DNA of 64,000 nucleotides from an uncultured Elusimicrobia bacterium (GTDB taxonomy: Bacteria; Elusimicrobiota; Elusimicrobia; UBA1565; UBA9628). The translations under genes were made by a program, and so were the position numbers. Below are positions 12,053 through 18,981 of the stretch, piece by piece. Numbering within the stretch: the stretch's first letter is position 1; every line of letters starts with the position of its first letter. The stretch is taken from positions 1 through 64,000 of the forward strand of contig CAIKVT010000058.1 in NCBI GenBank assembly GCA_903830945.1, given 5' to 3'. Under the pieces are notes generated by a model. The model searched no databases. It saw nothing but the letters and a program-made list of their open reading frames with translations, and had not been told where the DNA came from.

Positions 12053-14827
12053 TTAGAAGCGCTCGTACTGCGGCTTCCAGACGCGCGAGAACCCGAACGA
12101 GACGCCGGTCATGGCGCTGTAGCCCCAGAGCGGCCTGGTCTTGAGCGCGAATGAGTAGAAGTCGAGGAAGGGCGCGATGGTGAGGCGCTTGTGGATTGGG
12201 ATGCGCAGCTTGAAGTTGACGTCGCTCTCCCATCGCAGGTCCTGGGACTGGTCGTGGTTGGTCAGGAAGAAGTAGTTGGCCCAAGCCTCGCCTTCGAATT
12301 TCACGGGAGCGGGTCCGAAGTCCCGGGCGAAGAGCGCGCGGGCGCGCAGACCGTATTGGGTGTTGACTGGGTCAATGGAATAGTCGCGCTTGATGTTGGC
12401 CGCTAGGCGCAGCGAGCGCACGAAGGTGCCGTCGTAGAATTCCACGCCGGGATAGGCCGAGTAGATGTTGCGGCGTCGCAGCGGGGGGGTGGCTTCGAGT
12501 TGGCCCTCGTAGTTGAGGGCCAGGGACGGGCCCCAGGAATGGGCCAGCCACGGCTGCAGGACCGCTCCGATGCGGCGGGTGCCGCTGGTCGTGAGGCTCA
12601 TGCGGTTGGACGTGACATTGGTGATGGGGGGCTGGTCTCGGGGCCGCAGGCTGCTGCGGGCGTAGTCGAGCTCCAAAGTGTTCCCCCACTTGTAGTCCTG
12701 CAGCAGGTAGTCGGCGTCGGTTTTGAGGTTGCCGCCGATGAGCAGCTCGTTGCTGCCCTGGATGCGGGGGTTGGGCACCGAATTGAAGTCATTGGCGCGC
12801 GCGACCTGGGTGCCCTGCAGGTTGAGGCTCACGTCGCGGAAATTGACCCGCCAAAGGCCTGTCTTGGCGATCGGCTGGCCCTGCATCCAGTCCCAGTATC
12901 GCGCGGGCGGAGTGTCGTGACGGCTGATCAGGGCCGCCATCACGATCTCACCGATGCTGCGGCCGCCGGGAGCGGGATTGTGTTCGCCCGGAAGATCGAG
13001 CAGGTCCGCGACTATCTTGGATGTCGCTACCCGATAGAGCTCATTGGGATCCAAGGGCAGCCCGTGGACGGTCGTGGTGCCGCTGGGACCAAGGCCTCCG
13101 ACAGCGAAAGGGACTTTGTCCGGCCCCGTGGCATCCTGTGCGGCGAGCAGCTTCTGAGAGTCCTCAATCAGTGACTTGAGCTGGCTGCCTTTCAGCCATA
13201 CGATGACGGGCTGGTCATCGTATCTGAGCCAGACATTCAGAAGCCTCCTCTTGACCGCGGCCCCGGTTTGGACCCCCAGCGGCCAAGCGCGTAAGAGGCC
13301 GGCCTCGGAATGCGTCTCCTCCGCCAGCAGGCCCGCGGCCATGGTCCAGAAATCCTTTTCCTGGATGTTCTGCGTGGCCCGGATCTCGGAGGGGAGGATC
13401 TGGCTGGCGGCGGGAATGAGCACCGGTTCTGTGGAGTAATTTATGCCGTAGGATTCCGGGTCGAATCCGGGGAATGCGTCGGAACCGGGCATGGAGTCAT
13501 CCAGGAGAATGGGGGAACCGCGCACCCGCATGTCGGAGCGGTCGCCGTGCGGGGTCATCGTGACCTCGGCCAGGTTGAGTGCCTGCGGATGAGCGCGCAT
13601 GATCCAGAGCGGAGACTCGTATTTCCTGCGGCCGGCTTGGTTGGCCTGCGTTTCGAAGGGATGCGCCCCGGGCAGGGGGCCTTCCGATTCCGCCATGATC
13701 AAGTCCACGCCGTGCGCCGCCTTCCGTAGTGGCTCCATGTCCTTGTTGAGCGGGACCAGGAGCACCACGACATCGGCTTGCGCGCGGAATTTACTTATCC
13801 GAGACGCCAGGGCCTGGATAGGGTCGATGATGCTCATGTTTTTTAGTCCGGCCTGGGACAGGTACTTCGACGCAGATGGCGGTGTGACGGCCGTGATCGC
13901 CACCTGGAGACCGCCGGCCTCCAGCAGGGCATGGTCGGGCAGGAGGTTCACCGCCGGGGCGCTGGACACGACGAGATTGGCGGAGAGGAAATGGATGCCA
14001 TTGGGATGCCTGCGACGATATCCTTCCAGGTCCTTCCAGTGGAATATGTCGGCGGAAGCCACTGCGCTGTAGGAAAGCCCGAGCTTTTCCAGGGCCTCGA
14101 TCAGCGCCGATCCTTGGAACTCGGCGAGCGGGTCCCCGAAGACATCGCCCCGGGATAGGCCGATGATGGGGGGCGAGTCGTTTTTCGTGCGCTTCAAGGC
14201 CGTGGCCAATCGGCCCAGACCGCCGGATTGTTTTCCGATCAATACCATGGAGAGGTTTTGATCCTCCCAGCGCAGATGCACGAGGCCGGCGATGGCGTTG
14301 CTCCATCGTGCCTCTTCGCCCCGTGAGGGGTCCAGCAAGGCCGTGACCAGGGAGTCCCCTGAGGGCTGTTGGACCACGGAGAGCATCACGGTCCGAGTGG
14401 CAGGGAGCACGCTCCAGGATCCCTGATATGTGGAAGGGTCCTGGGCTGCTTGAAGCAGGGCGGAGATCAATGAGGGATTGGACGGGGTGAAGATCGCGAC
14501 CGATGACTCGGTTTCCAGGACCAGAGCCGGGGTCTGTCCGGAGGCGCCTGGGAGCCCGTGGGGGATGCGAAAACGGTAGTCGCTCCCGCTGTAATATCCA
14601 TCCAGCATCTCTATGTCGCGCAGTGTCCCGCTGGACGGGTATTGCCGTAGCACGCGCATCAACGGGGTCGCGAGCTCCCAGTCATCAAAATGGTAGGAGA
14701 CGTTCTCGATGAGGGCCAGCCGGACCGCGCCCGAGGAGAGGGTTTTGGCGTGTAGGGGGAGGGAGAGGAATACGGAAACCAATAAAAAGCACAGTCCTCC
14801 ACCTTTCGGGGGCAAGATGGCCTTCAC
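12053..14827 (-). CDS. Degenerate 5'-nucleotidase fused to outer-membrane beta-barrel
   Basis: A 924-residue exported protein with signal peptide GLCFLLVSVFLSLPLHA. Residues around 200-380 follow the 5'-nucleotidase metallophosphatase pattern (GGLGRLATALK, SRGDVFGDPLAEFQGSALI, FLSANLV). However, the expected GNHEFD is ASADIF, the later His motif reads VPLN, and GGHSH reads AESEG, so the metal ligands are mostly gone. Residues about 525-620 fit the 5'-nucleotidase C-terminal substrate domain (VIVWLKGSQLKSLIE, LDPNELYRVATSKIVADL). From about 660 on, alternating aromatic strands end in SRVWKPQYERF with a terminal Phe, as in outer-membrane barrels. It is likely a surface-bound non-catalytic binding protein; the ligand is unknown. 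Confidence 0.65.
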   Translation of the reverse strand: MKAILPPKGGGLCFLLVSVFLSLPLHAKTLSSGAVRLALIENVSYHFDDWELATPLMRVLRQYPSSGTLRDIEMLDGYYSGSDYRFRIPHGLPGASGQTPALVLETESSVAIFTPSNPSLISALLQAAQDPSTYQGSWSVLPATRTVMLSVVQQPSGDSLVTALLDPSRGEEARWSNAIAGLVHLRWEDQNLSMVLIGKQSGGLGRLATALKRTKNDSPPIIGLSRGDVFGDPLAEFQGSALIEALEKLGLSYSAVASADIFHWKDLEGYRRRHPNGIHFLSANLVVSSAPAVNLLPDHALLEAGGLQVAITAVTPPSASKYLSQAGLKNMSIIDPIQALASRISKFRAQADVVVLLVPLNKDMEPLRKAAHGVDLIMAESEGPLPGAHPFETQANQAGRRKYESPLWIMRAHPQALNLAEVTMTPHGDRSDMRVRGSPILLDDSMPGSDAFPGFDPESYGINYSTEPVLIPAASQILPSEIRATQNIQEKDFWTMAAGLLAEETHSEAGLLRAWPLGVQTGAAVKRRLLNVWLRYDDQPVIVWLKGSQLKSLIEDSQKLLAAQDATGPDKVPFAVGGLGPSGTTTVHGLPLDPNELYRVATSKIVADLLDLPGEHNPAPGGRSIGEIVMAALISRHDTPPARYWDWMQGQPIAKTGLWRVNFRDVSLNLQGTQVARANDFNSVPNPRIQGSNELLIGGNLKTDADYLLQDYKWGNTLELDYARSSLRPRDQPPITNVTSNRMSLTTSGTRRIGAVLQPWLAHSWGPSLALNYEGQLEATPPLRRRNIYSAYPGVEFYDGTFVRSLRLAANIKRDYSIDPVNTQYGLRARALFARDFGPAPVKFEGEAWANYFFLTNHDQSQDLRWESDVNFKLRIPIHKRLTIAPFLDFYSFALKTRPLWGYSAMTGVSFGFSRVWKPQYERF

Positions 14828-14853: not shown

Positions 14854-17055
14854 TCAGGGCACTAAGGAGTCGTCGGAGGCCGATCGGGACCGGATCGCGG
14901 CTTGCCCGCGCGGGATCAGTGAGATCCAGTCCGCCACGATGCGCGCCGCCTCGTCGCGATAGACGTCCGGGGCTGATGGGTCCTTGTTCTCTTCTTCCTC
15001 CCCGTTGAGGTCTGCCGTCTTGGCTTGGGTCGAGGCCTGCACCGCGGTCGCTGCGGGCTTGCTGATCAGCGCTTCCAGGGTGATTTCGACTTCAGGGAAT
15101 TTCGGCGTCTTGCGTGCGGCGCGCGCGGCCTTGCGGTTCTTGGCGCGATCTTCGTCGGCGGTCTTCTCGGCCCGGCGCTTGCCCTCGTTGAGCGAGAGCG
15201 CTTTGTCCTTCTGCTGCTTCTGGTAGCGTTCGATGTCCTCGCGGATGTAGCCGAACTCCGGTGAGGCTGCGACCCGCACCTGCGAGTCCTTGTCGAGCTG
15301 GGCTAGGACCGGCGTCACCTTGTCGAGTTTTTGGTACGGGACCGGCTCTACCTCGTCATAAGGCATGGCATTTTTAAGAGAGGTCTCGGTCATGTCCATG
15401 GAGTCCGCCACGGCCGGCATGCGGATGTCGGGGATGACTCCGCGGTTCTGGGTCGAGCCGCCGGAGATGCGGTAGAATTTCTGGATGGTGAGTTTGAGCG
15501 AGCCCGGCTTGTGCTCGCGCAGGGCCGAGGGCATATACTGGTCGAGCTCCACGACCGACTGTACCGTGCCTTTGCCGAAGGTGCTCTTGTGGCCCGCGAT
15601 CACGGCGCGGCCGTAGTCCTGCAGGGCCGCGGCCAGGATCTCCGAGGCCGAGGCCGAGGCGCGTGAGGTCAGCACCAGCATGGGCCCCGCATAGGAAACG
15701 TCGCTCTCCGGGGCCGGGGTGCGCAGGACTCGGGTGAAGCCGCGGGTGTCCTTGACCTGGACCACGGCGCCGTCGTTGATGAACACTCGCGTGAGCGCCA
15801 CCGCCTCGGAGAGCGAACCTCCGCCGTTGTGGCGCAGGTCCAGGATCAGGCCGTCTATGCCCTTGGACTCCAGCGCGGCCAGGAGCTTAACTACGTCGCG
15901 CGTCGTGCTTTTGGCGTCGCCGGCACCCTTGAGGTCGGCGTAGAAGGATGGCAGGTCGATCTCGCCGATGCGGGCGCTCTTGCCGCCCGGCTCCGGGACC
16001 GTGAGGATCTTGGCCCGGGCTTCCTGGTCGGTCAGCTTGATCTCATCGCGGACCAAGGCGATGATTTCGCGCTTCGAGGAATCCGCGGACTCGGCCGGGA
16101 TGACTTTGAGGCGCACCGTGGTCCCCTTGTCGCCGCGGATGAGCTGGACCAGCCGGTCGAGCTTCATGCCCACGGCGTCCAGGAACGGCCCGTCTCCTTG
16201 GGCCACGGCCTCGACTTTGTCGTTGGGCTTGAGCCGGCCGCCCTTGGCGGCTGGACCTCCTGGAACCAGCGACACGATCTTGGCGTAGCCGTCCTCAGAA
16301 CGCAGCACGGCGCCGATGCCGACCAAGGAGAGCTTCATGCTGATGTTGAAGTTCTCCGCCGAGGGCGCGGCCATGTAGTCCGAGTGCGGGTCGTAGGAGT
16401 GGGCCAAGGCGTCGAGATAGGCCTGCAGGACGTCGTTGGCGTCGAACTCCTTGAAACTGCGCAGCAGGCGGTCGTAGCGGGTCGTTACAGTCTTGGCCGG
16501 ATCCTCGGGCTTGGCACTTCCGAGCCGCTCTTGGAGGATGTCGAATTTAACGCGCAGGCGCCAGAGGTTCGTCGATTCTTTCTCATCGGCGGGCCAGGGC
16601 AGCTCATGACGATCCACGACCAGACTTTCATCCTCCGTGAACGTGAAGGTCGAGGCCGCGAATCTTTCAACTTGGGTCTTGCGTTCCTGCGCGCGCTTGA
16701 GGAAGCGCTCGAAGATTTCGTAGGCCGGGGAGAGGTCGCCGTTGCGGATCGACTCGCCCATGCGGTCTCCGTAGCGGGTCCCGAACTCATCCACGTCGGA
16801 CTTTTCGAAGAACATGTGGTTGTAGTCGTAGTATTCGAGATATTCGTGCAGCCATTGCCGGGACAGGGATTCGTCGATGGGCCGGTGGTTGTAGTGGGTC
16901 TGTTCGAAGATGCGCGCCACGAGCTGGGCCACGACCTGCTCGGCCGGGGTCGATTCCAGGACGGCCCAGGCCGGCAGGGACCACGCGGCGATGAGGACGA
17001 GGGTCAGGGACGCGGCCCGGCCAGTCCACCTCAGGTGGGTCCGCCAATTGCTCAT
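14854..17055 (-). CDS. prc: Tail-specific (C-terminal processing) protease, S41A
   Basis: A 733-residue periplasmic serine protease. Order: signal peptide (SLTLVLIAAWSLPAWA), Tsp N-terminal domain (YDYNHMFFEKSDVDEF), PDZ domain (MKLSLVGIGAVLRSEDGYAKI), S41 catalytic core with Ser in SRASASASEILAAAL and Lys in STFGKGTVQSVVEL, then the Tsp C-terminal domain. It degrades or trims periplasmic proteins. I start at MSNWRTH because CGAGGAG precedes it and a normal signal peptide follows. An upstream in-frame ATG at 17094 lies six bases after TATAAT and would add 13 residues. Confidence 0.93.
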   Translation of the reverse strand: MSNWRTHLRWTGRAASLTLVLIAAWSLPAWAVLESTPAEQVVAQLVARIFEQTHYNHRPIDESLSRQWLHEYLEYYDYNHMFFEKSDVDEFGTRYGDRMGESIRNGDLSPAYEIFERFLKRAQERKTQVERFAASTFTFTEDESLVVDRHELPWPADEKESTNLWRLRVKFDILQERLGSAKPEDPAKTVTTRYDRLLRSFKEFDANDVLQAYLDALAHSYDPHSDYMAAPSAENFNISMKLSLVGIGAVLRSEDGYAKIVSLVPGGPAAKGGRLKPNDKVEAVAQGDGPFLDAVGMKLDRLVQLIRGDKGTTVRLKVIPAESADSSKREIIALVRDEIKLTDQEARAKILTVPEPGGKSARIGEIDLPSFYADLKGAGDAKSTTRDVVKLLAALESKGIDGLILDLRHNGGGSLSEAVALTRVFINDGAVVQVKDTRGFTRVLRTPAPESDVSYAGPMLVLTSRASASASEILAAALQDYGRAVIAGHKSTFGKGTVQSVVELDQYMPSALREHKPGSLKLTIQKFYRISGGSTQNRGVIPDIRMPAVADSMDMTETSLKNAMPYDEVEPVPYQKLDKVTPVLAQLDKDSQVRVAASPEFGYIREDIERYQKQQKDKALSLNEGKRRAEKTADEDRAKNRKAARAARKTPKFPEVEITLEALISKPAATAVQASTQAKTADLNGEEEENKDPSAPDVYRDEAARIVADWISLIPRGQAAIRSRSASDDSLVP

Positions 17056-17100
17056 GGTCGCTCCTCGCGGCGGCTGCGCTGCAGCATCGGGCATGGCTCT

Positions 17101-17164: not shown

Positions 17165-18418
17165 CTATTTCGTCTGGGGCGGCGCCGGTTTGAGGAAGTT
17201 CCGCACTGCGCGCAGGGCATTTTTGACCGGGGCTAAGAACGGGAATTTCTTCTCCAGCGCGAGGATGTCGCTTTGGGCGGCCGTAATCTTCGGGTCGAGG
17301 CGGCCCATGTCTTCGTAGGCCCTGCTGCGCACCTCCGCTGCGTTCCCGTGGAATTCAGCCGCGGCGAACTCGTAGGGGTGATCGACCAGCACTCTGAGGG
17401 AGGCCTTTTCTTTCAGAAGCCCGCGGAGTTTGTCCCGGAGCTGCCGGTGCTCTTGCCGGATCGCGGCTTCCATCTGGGCGATGGCTTGCTGCTTTTGGGT
17501 GATCTGGGGTTCAAGCGCTCTGCCTTGCTGGTAGGCGACGGCGCGCGCTTCGGCTGCGCCGCCTCGGTATTCAGGCGCCAGGCTGGAGAGCGCTCTGCCG
17601 GAGTGCAGGAGCAAGTCGTGCTGCTCGCGCAGCGCTTTGAGCTGGCTCTTCGCTCGAGCGAGGTCTTCCGAGCTTGTGGGCCGCTCCCCAGCCACGGCTG
17701 GGGTGGCAGGTCCTGACAACGAAGGGGTGTGCGGGCTGAGCCGGGCATGCTGACGCGCGAAACTCTGCGGATCCGCTGGTCCCGACTGGATCGCTCCGGC
17801 ATTTTTTTCTCCGGGCAGAGATTTCACTGGAGACTTGCCTTGTAAGCCTTGGGCGATGTCCCTGATCTTCGCGTCGAGGCGGGCGCGCTGCGCCTCGGAG
17901 AGCTGGGTGTGCGCCTGGACATAGACCTTTGCGAGGTGAGTGATCTCAGAGGCGGGCAGGTAATCGCCTGAAGCCTGGCCCAACACGTAGAGTTTAGCCA
18001 CCAGTTCTGGAGAAACTTCCTGGTTGGCCTGCTGGGTCAGGGCCGTCGCTTCTTGTTGGACCGTCTCCTGGGTCTTGACCGCGGCGGATTCGAGCAGGGC
18101 GCGTTGGGCTTCCGGGGCCATGCCGGAGAAGGCTTCCGGGGTCACGTTCTGTGATTCCAGAGTCATGACTATCGGCGCAAGATGCAGACGCAAGTCTGGG
18201 CTGGATAAGTCGTTTTTTAGCAGGGATAAGCAGCTCCCCGTCGGCAATGCGCTGGCGGGCAGCTGCGTGATGGATGCGCCGATGGCGCCTGCCCAGGCCC
18301 CGGGGACCGAGGTGTATAGGGACGCCCGTCCTTCGACTTGCGCGAAAGAAGGAATGTCGGATGCGGCCAGGACTCCGGCGAGCAAAGCCGCTGCCCAAAT
18401 GAATCGATTCGTTTTCAT
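17165..18418 (-). CDS. Secreted helical protein of unknown function with a duplicated segment
   Basis: A 417-residue protein with a signal peptide (FIWAAALLAGVLAASDIPSFA). It is rich in Ala, Gln and Glu, and long stretches look coiled-coil (LARAKSQLKALREQHDLLL). Two C-terminal segments are clearly related: YRGGAAEARAVAYQQGRALE and FHGNAAEVRSRAYEDMGRLD, each followed by PxIT and a helix. I do not recognise a family. It is downstream of the PC4 gene on the same strand, and prc follows it. AGAGGA precedes the start. Confidence 0.7.
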   Translation of the reverse strand: MKTNRFIWAAALLAGVLAASDIPSFAQVEGRASLYTSVPGAWAGAIGASITQLPASALPTGSCLSLLKNDLSSPDLRLHLAPIVMTLESQNVTPEAFSGMAPEAQRALLESAAVKTQETVQQEATALTQQANQEVSPELVAKLYVLGQASGDYLPASEITHLAKVYVQAHTQLSEAQRARLDAKIRDIAQGLQGKSPVKSLPGEKNAGAIQSGPADPQSFARQHARLSPHTPSLSGPATPAVAGERPTSSEDLARAKSQLKALREQHDLLLHSGRALSSLAPEYRGGAAEARAVAYQQGRALEPQITQKQQAIAQMEAAIRQEHRQLRDKLRGLLKEKASLRVLVDHPYEFAAAEFHGNAAEVRSRAYEDMGRLDPKITAAQSDILALEKKFPFLAPVKNALRAVRNFLKPAPPQTK

Positions 18419-18496: not shown

Positions 18497-18955
18497 CTAT
18501 TCTTTGACGACGAGTTGGCGCATCTCCTTGAGATAGGAGGCGGCCTGGGGCACGTCCTTGTACGGGATGCGCACGCCCTTCTTCGACCATCCTTTATAGG
18601 ATGAGTCCTCGACCCATTCGCGCAGGTCCACGCCGGTGGTGTCGCGGAAGATGGTGATGCGCACCACGAGTTCGACGCCCGCCTTCTTCGGGAAGCGGGC
18701 TAGTTCCACATCTTCGGTGGTCTCGGGTTCCTTGGGCAGCTTTTGCAGTTCGGGAAGGACTTTGTCGAGGAGGATTGCGTTTAAAGTAATGCCGGACTTC
18801 GTGGGCCCCGTGTAGGAATCGCCCTGGATAAAGGTGCGGATTGATCCGTATTTGTAGCCCTTGTACTCGTCCACGTAGAACTTAAGCTGGGTGGTTTCCG
18901 ACAGGGAGATGGTCCCTAATTCCTTGAGAGGCTTGAATTCTCGGGGTTCTGCCAT
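18497..18955 (-). CDS. Tandem PC4/p15-like ssDNA-binding protein
   Basis: A 152-residue protein containing two copies of the PC4 fold. Copy 1 (about residues 15-70): LKFYVDEYKGYKYGSIRTF and PTKSGITLNAILLDKVLPEL. Copy 2 (about 90-150): ITIFRDTTGVDLREWVEDS and SKKGVRIPYKDVPQAASYL. PC4 and its bacterial relatives bind single-stranded or melted DNA as homodimers, so a two-domain chain may act as a covalent pseudo-dimer. TATAAT and GGAGGG are both present upstream, giving a short leader. It diverges from the CNNM gene with 62 bp between the starts. Confidence 0.75.
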   Translation of the reverse strand: MAEPREFKPLKELGTISLSETTQLKFYVDEYKGYKYGSIRTFIQGDSYTGPTKSGITLNAILLDKVLPELQKLPKEPETTEDVELARFPKKAGVELVVRITIFRDTTGVDLREWVEDSSYKGWSKKGVRIPYKDVPQAASYLKEMRQLVVKE

Positions 18956-18975
18956 TGTCCCTCCGACTATCCACA

Positions 18976-18981
18976 ATTATA
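18976..18981 (-). promoter_or_regulatory. -10 box of the PC4-like gene
   Basis: TATAAT on the minus strand. The transcript would have a leader of roughly 14 nt holding GGAGGG, so this gene uses a Shine-Dalgarno, unlike its divergent neighbour. Confidence 0.5.

Follow-up and report, generated by a model that had tools for sequence, protein, structure and literature searches.

A degenerate 5′-nucleotidase fused to a predicted 12-stranded outer-membrane β-barrel in Elusimicrobiota

Results

A fused gene for a pseudo-5′-nucleotidase and a β-barrel

We report that a single gene of an uncultured Elusimicrobia bacterium encodes a 5′-nucleotidase-type fold that has lost its active site, joined to a predicted 12-stranded outer-membrane β-barrel, and that this fusion may serve as a channel with a built-in periplasmic cap. 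The window analysed here, the first 64,000 nucleotides of contig CAIKVT010000058.1 (assembly GCA_903830945.1), belongs to a 3.24-Mb genome of the phylum Elusimicrobiota. The gene occupies positions 12053–14827 of the minus strand, on which all features of the chain described below are also located, and encodes 924 amino acids in the order signal peptide, pseudo-5′-nucleotidase and barrel. Its open reading frame is intact and starts with GTG, 26 nucleotides past the stop codon of a Prc/tail-specific protease gene (14854–17094, minus strand) that lies directly upstream; no clear ribosome-binding site was seen upstream of the GTG. The fold, the loss of the site, the fusion, its conservation and the type of barrel were all assessed by computation, as detailed in the following sections.

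Residues 28–651 have the fold of UshA and CD73

No Pfam family reached its cut-off for the 924-residue chain, the weak matches being those to 5_nucleotid_C (E 0.014) and DUF3078 (E 0.008), and no Pfam or NCBIfam model scored above cut-off for the member in the window. A PDB sequence search with the single protein gave no match, and a first scan of genome contigs with it found no relative. The best NCBIfam match was UshA_like_PCGU (NF041198; E 3.9e-11, residues 199–379), to which the chain scored 42.2 bits against a cut-off of 275. We also compared a profile of 32 fused members with one of 12 intact 5′-nucleotidases, consisting of Escherichia coli UshA and Elusimicrobiota enzymes; the two aligned over 424 columns with a probability of 99.9 and an E-value of 6.6e-33. 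An AlphaFold model of the full chain, built from a 20-sequence alignment (pLDDT 83.8, pTM 0.76), superposed over residues 28–651 on UshA (Z 23.9), SoxB (Z 23.1) and CD73 (Z 22.4), with the UshA match spanning residues 28–647, and Foldseek retrieved the same fold at E-values of about 1e-16. These results confirm that residues 28–651 form a UshA/CD73-type two-domain unit, a metallophosphatase domain followed by a 5_nucleotid_C domain, which an earlier sequence-only reading of this DNA had recognised as a 5′-nucleotidase.

The chain begins with a Sec-type signal peptide (residues 1–27; 14747–14827), probably cleaved after LHA, in which we read no lipobox; residues 1–29 are disordered in the model. 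The strand equivalent to motif I, identified by structural match, comprises residues 33–46 (14690–14731), and the degenerate metallophosphatase domain, delimited by profile and structure matches, comprises residues 191–430 (13538–14257). As the superposition extends from residue 28 and the profile match only from residue 199, we placed residues 45–190 (14258–14695) as an insertion of about 150 residues, a feature missed by the earlier reading. It separates the motif-I strand from the GGLxR helix. In the most enzyme-like member of the family (L030/L129), which lacks the insertion, motif I leads straight into this helix. The 5′-nucleotidase C-terminal domain fold follows at residues 431–651 (12875–13537), again supported by both profile and structure.

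The PCGU/PCGC motif of the UshA_like_PCGU family is absent from the translation of the fused chain, and none of 295 Elusimicrobiota genomes contained a match to NF041198 over its cut-off. UshA_like_PCGU-type relatives in the phylum share with the fused chain the absence of the classical motif I; the four read here differ from it in that they lack a barrel and carry a thioredoxin-like part at the N-terminus. The four loci, L058:1372–2829(−), L059:892–2355(+), L060:1357–2793(−) and L066:802–2358(+), encode UshA-like proteins with a TlpA-like thioredoxin part at the N-terminus, CxC in place of motif I (for example, ESCDCPENPFGG) and GDQE in place of GNHE; they are cysteine forms that resemble the family of UshA-like selenoproteins. 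An in-frame TGA in locus L026 was considered as a selenocysteine codon and rejected, the TGA being the terminal stop.

The metal and nucleotide sites have degenerated across the family

We mapped the residues of UshA onto the alignment of the 32 fused members; the motif-I strand, which falls outside the hhalign alignment, was placed structurally. The sequence-only reading had called the enzyme catalytically dead, with GNHEFD turned into ASADIF and the later histidine motifs gone, and the mapping bears this out. ASADIF (residues 257–262; 14042–14059) is in register with GNHEFD: N116 of UshA corresponds to S258 (Asn in 2 of 32 members), H117 to A259 (His in 1 of 32) and E118 to D260, the one kept position, which is Asp or Glu in 32/32. 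H217 is replaced by P359, with His in four members only. AESEG (residues 379–383; 13679–13693) takes the place of GGHSQ, so that H252 becomes S381, at a position where the residues listed for the family do not include His, and Q254 becomes G383. D84 is present in the protein of the window, as D228, and in only 4 of the 32 members. Thus, when the seven metal ligands of UshA are considered, replaced or variable residues stand at four aligned positions and at that of Q254, D84 is present in the protein of the window, and D41 and H43 are unaligned; the strand that would carry the latter two reads RLALIENVSYH here, without the D-x-H of motif I. Even L129, the member nearest to the canonical enzymes, has degenerate metal-ligand and nucleotide-site positions.

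The earlier reading had also stated that the substrate-binding C-terminal domain is kept. This holds for the fold and fails for the binding residues, as the nucleotide-binding positions R410, F429 and F498 of UshA correspond to G518, Y536 and I605, respectively, and vary among the 32 members. The invariant positions of the enzyme part in this alignment are N284, D375, E508, G547, G578 and Y598. Intact enzymes, too, retain the invariant Asn of the SAN segment and Asp of the GID segment, which thus look structural, and we found no conserved set of His, Asp or Cys residues in the enzyme part of the 32-member alignment. An enzyme fold, the loss of catalytic residues across orthologues and a gene under apparent selection (see below) are all found here, as they are in a pseudoenzyme. 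The genome encodes a separate 5′-nucleotidase homologue elsewhere (E 2e-136 against the intact profile), which probably supplies the enzymatic function.

The C-terminal region is predicted to form a 12-stranded barrel

The last part of the chain (residues 658–924; 12056–12856) folded into 12 antiparallel strands (residues 658–917), both in the full model and when predicted alone from 47 sequences (pLDDT 89.7, pTM 0.84). The chain ends in Phe924, in agreement with the proposal, made from the sequence, of a β-barrel of some 260 residues ending in Phe. The hydropathy of the strands alternates as in a barrel wall, with a family mean z of 4.5 against shuffled sequences, none of 2000 of which scored as high; the strands of the enzyme part gave a z of 2.3 in the same test. 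An Omp85/BamA protein is encoded in the same genome.

Fold comparisons placed the barrel closest to PcoB (Z 16.5), Tsx (Z 15.0) and OMPLA (Z 14.3), a group matched in shape over about 200 residues (Z 16.5–13.7, rmsd 3.4–4.1), followed by NanC/KdgM (Z about 12–13). The autotransporters NalP (Z 11.3), EstA (Z 10.5) and EspP (Z 9.5) scored lower. PcoB, Tsx, OMPLA and KdgM/NanC have the same number of strands, 12, but only 8–16% identity to the barrel, and no match to the Pfam families of the PcoB/Tsx/OMPLA group was found at E ≤ 1 among 47 barrel members. To our knowledge, none of these proteins carries a pseudo-nucleotidase. The Pfam autotransporter β-domain matched neither the chain of the window nor any of the 47 barrel members. 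Weak matches to DUF3078 (PF11276), a family of Bacteroidota outer-membrane proteins of unknown function, were obtained for 26 of the 47 barrel members (best E 9.6e-8); the barrel of the window scored 20.8 bits, under the gathering cut-off of 25 bits, with only about 65 residues covered.

A short junction would hold the pseudoenzyme close to the barrel

The folded enzyme domain ends at residue 651 and a short junction (residues 652–657; 12857–12874) connects it to the barrel, the distance to Trp659 being 6–8 residues in 31/31 relatives, as judged from the predicted model and the alignment. An outer-membrane barrel with an even number of strands has both ends in the periplasm. The loops following the odd strands comprise 17, 7, 12, 6, 10 and 5 residues and the turns following the even strands 2, 12, 4, 4 and 2 residues, the 12-residue turn after strand 4 being the exception to the short-turn rule. 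As the even turns are mostly short and the odd loops longer, the termini of the barrel are expected to be periplasmic. Since 6–8 residues are too few to span the barrel, we infer a periplasmic position for the pseudoenzyme, just below the mouth of the barrel, a docking geometry deduced from the length of the linker.

Distribution and evolution of the fused chain

Of 57 related genomes, 30 contained the chain or recognisable pieces of it, and most of the homologues were full length with open frames. Chains with the same domain order were found repeatedly in one class of Elusimicrobiota; their contigs are independent of one another and represent many genera and several families. Within a sample of 295 Elusimicrobiota genomes, the barrel was present in 136. 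A contig scan with the barrel alignment, for which one narrow pattern was used, gave 22 loci labelled Elusimicrobia/Elusimicrobiota or just ‘bacterium’.

Fused chains of about 900–1000 residues were found in families f1, f2, f3, f5, f10, f11 and f13 and in a few members of f12, and stand-alone barrels of about 290–305 residues in those genomes of f12 that are small (reduced) and in f15, a family of another class. A single change in the barrel tree separates fused from stand-alone forms (support 100/98). In the midpoint-rooted tree, the root of which is not fixed, the stand-alone forms are nested in the fused f12 group, which makes loss of the pseudoenzyme the simpler reading of their origin. 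The barrel is 85–86% identical to those of the two nearest relatives, and the other parts of the chain are 51–60% identical. NG86 dN/dS values were 0.2–0.56 in every part, with dS partly saturated, and the chain thus appears to be under purifying selection. Genomes G033 and G205 have two paralogues of the fused protein (L140:6805–9534(+) with L016, and L124 with L125), the L125 paralogue being extremely divergent.

Gene neighbourhoods differ between lineages

The common order in family f1 is Prc, in many cases ClpB, and the fused gene, often with LigT and DTD genes on the far side; in the window, ClpB is absent between Prc and the fused gene. Family f2 has instead a gene for a small secreted thioredoxin-like CxxC protein directly upstream of the fused gene (L104:3632–4069, L106:3644–4081 and L108:3704–4126, all on the plus strand). 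Clustering of the neighbours revealed no universal conserved partner, and because the neighbours differ between lineages the context names no substrate or partner.

Upstream of Prc in the window, on the same strand, lie a gene for a predicted secreted protein of 417 residues without a confident family match (17165–18418) and one for a small protein (18497–18976), two stretches of which match the PC4 family of ssDNA-binding coactivators. An intact-looking secreted 5′-nucleotidase of 529 residues (L138:1230–2816(−)) is encoded two genes from the stand-alone barrel L138:4949–5848(+), and its relatives occur near the barrel in L131, L135 and L139 with the same synteny. We considered whether stand-alone barrels have their enzyme part encoded nearby and rejected this idea, as these four loci share one synteny in related genomes and are not independent evidence.

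Discussion

Both domains of the chain are of known kinds. A fusion of the two with the enzyme dead in every examined member was not found in the openly accessible literature that we searched, in line with the impression of the sequence-only reading that no such family had been described. UshA, CD73 and SoxB (COG0737) have in common with the fused chain the two-domain fold of its residues 28–651, and differ from it in that the fused chain is devoid of the metal, catalytic and nucleotide-binding residues and has acquired the insertion after motif I as well as the barrel.

We consider it possible, at somewhat less than even chances, that the protein is an outer-membrane channel with a non-catalytic periplasmic pseudoenzyme as its cap. 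The barrel would span the outer membrane, with its two ends on the periplasmic side, and act as a PcoB/Tsx/KdgM-type channel. Directly below its mouth, the pseudoenzyme would serve as a cap, a gate or a docking platform and bind either a partner protein or a substrate that is not a nucleotide, and the insertion may have taken the position once held by the metal site. As the slowest-evolving part, and one that can exist alone, the barrel would be the functional core, and the pseudoenzyme an accessory without which some lineages manage. The short, fixed linker and the PcoB/Tsx/OMPLA-like fold favour such a capped channel over surface display; that OMPLA, which is an enzyme, shares the barrel shape counts against a channel. 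A bolder version, which we offer with considerable doubt, is that these proteins are phylum-wide channels of the Elusimicrobiota in which a dead 5′-nucleotidase with an insertion at its active site became the built-in periplasmic gate of a Tsx/PcoB-like barrel or its ligand-binding cap; a scavenging pair made up of an enzyme and a channel would have been fused and later turned into a non-enzymatic transporter.

An unlikely though serious alternative is that the protein is a periplasmic scaffold or envelope-maintenance factor, in which the barrel chiefly anchors a protein-binding pseudoenzyme to the outer membrane, for instance one that presents substrates to Prc or aids outer-membrane assembly. 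The frequent position beside Prc or Prc-ClpB (protein quality control) in family f1 and the thioredoxin-like neighbour in f2 would fit this, as would the link of a DUF3078 relative, PG1786 of Porphyromonas, to type 9 secretion, of which it is listed as a hypothetical component (PMC9722745). These neighbourhoods, however, are not kept across lineages, and a mere anchor would predict neither a barrel more conserved than the pseudoenzyme nor one that exists alone. The sequence-only reading had instead proposed a surface receptor or autotransporter-like display system, with the pseudoenzyme moved to the surface through or by the barrel as a receptor or adhesin. Type Va autotransporters such as NalP, EstA and EspP, which do appear among the barrel fold matches, likewise consist of a signal peptide, a folded N-terminal passenger and a C-terminal 12-stranded barrel. 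Their linker segment, however, runs through the barrel lumen before strand 1, whereas in the fused chain the UshA-like domain aligns up to residue 651 and strand 1 starts at 658, which leaves no pore-spanning helix in any relative. Together with the better fit of PcoB, Tsx and OMPLA, the lack of the Pfam autotransporter domain and the expected periplasmic termini, this makes display distinctly improbable.

That the protein has remained an enzyme, its active site having moved or become independent of metal, could be argued from the acidic residue retained at the E118 position and from the apparent purifying selection; with no conserved His/Asp/Cys set and the invariant SAN and GID residues looking structural, we regard it as very unlikely. 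The chance that the gene is an artefact, a spurious fusion of reading frames, a frameshift or an assembly error, is close to nil: its only supporting point is the lack of a clear ribosome-binding site, and it is refuted by the homologues in the related genomes and by the wide spread over families of the same order free of internal stops. A capped channel is the reading that we prefer.

Elusimicrobiota are a little-studied phylum whose ways of assembling and exploiting the outer membrane are poorly understood, and the fused chain or its barrel is one of their recurrent envelope proteins. It is a clear example of an enzyme that has become an accessory of a membrane protein, and the existence of a less degenerate relative, L129, and of lineages with the barrel alone makes the order of fusion, decay and separation testable.
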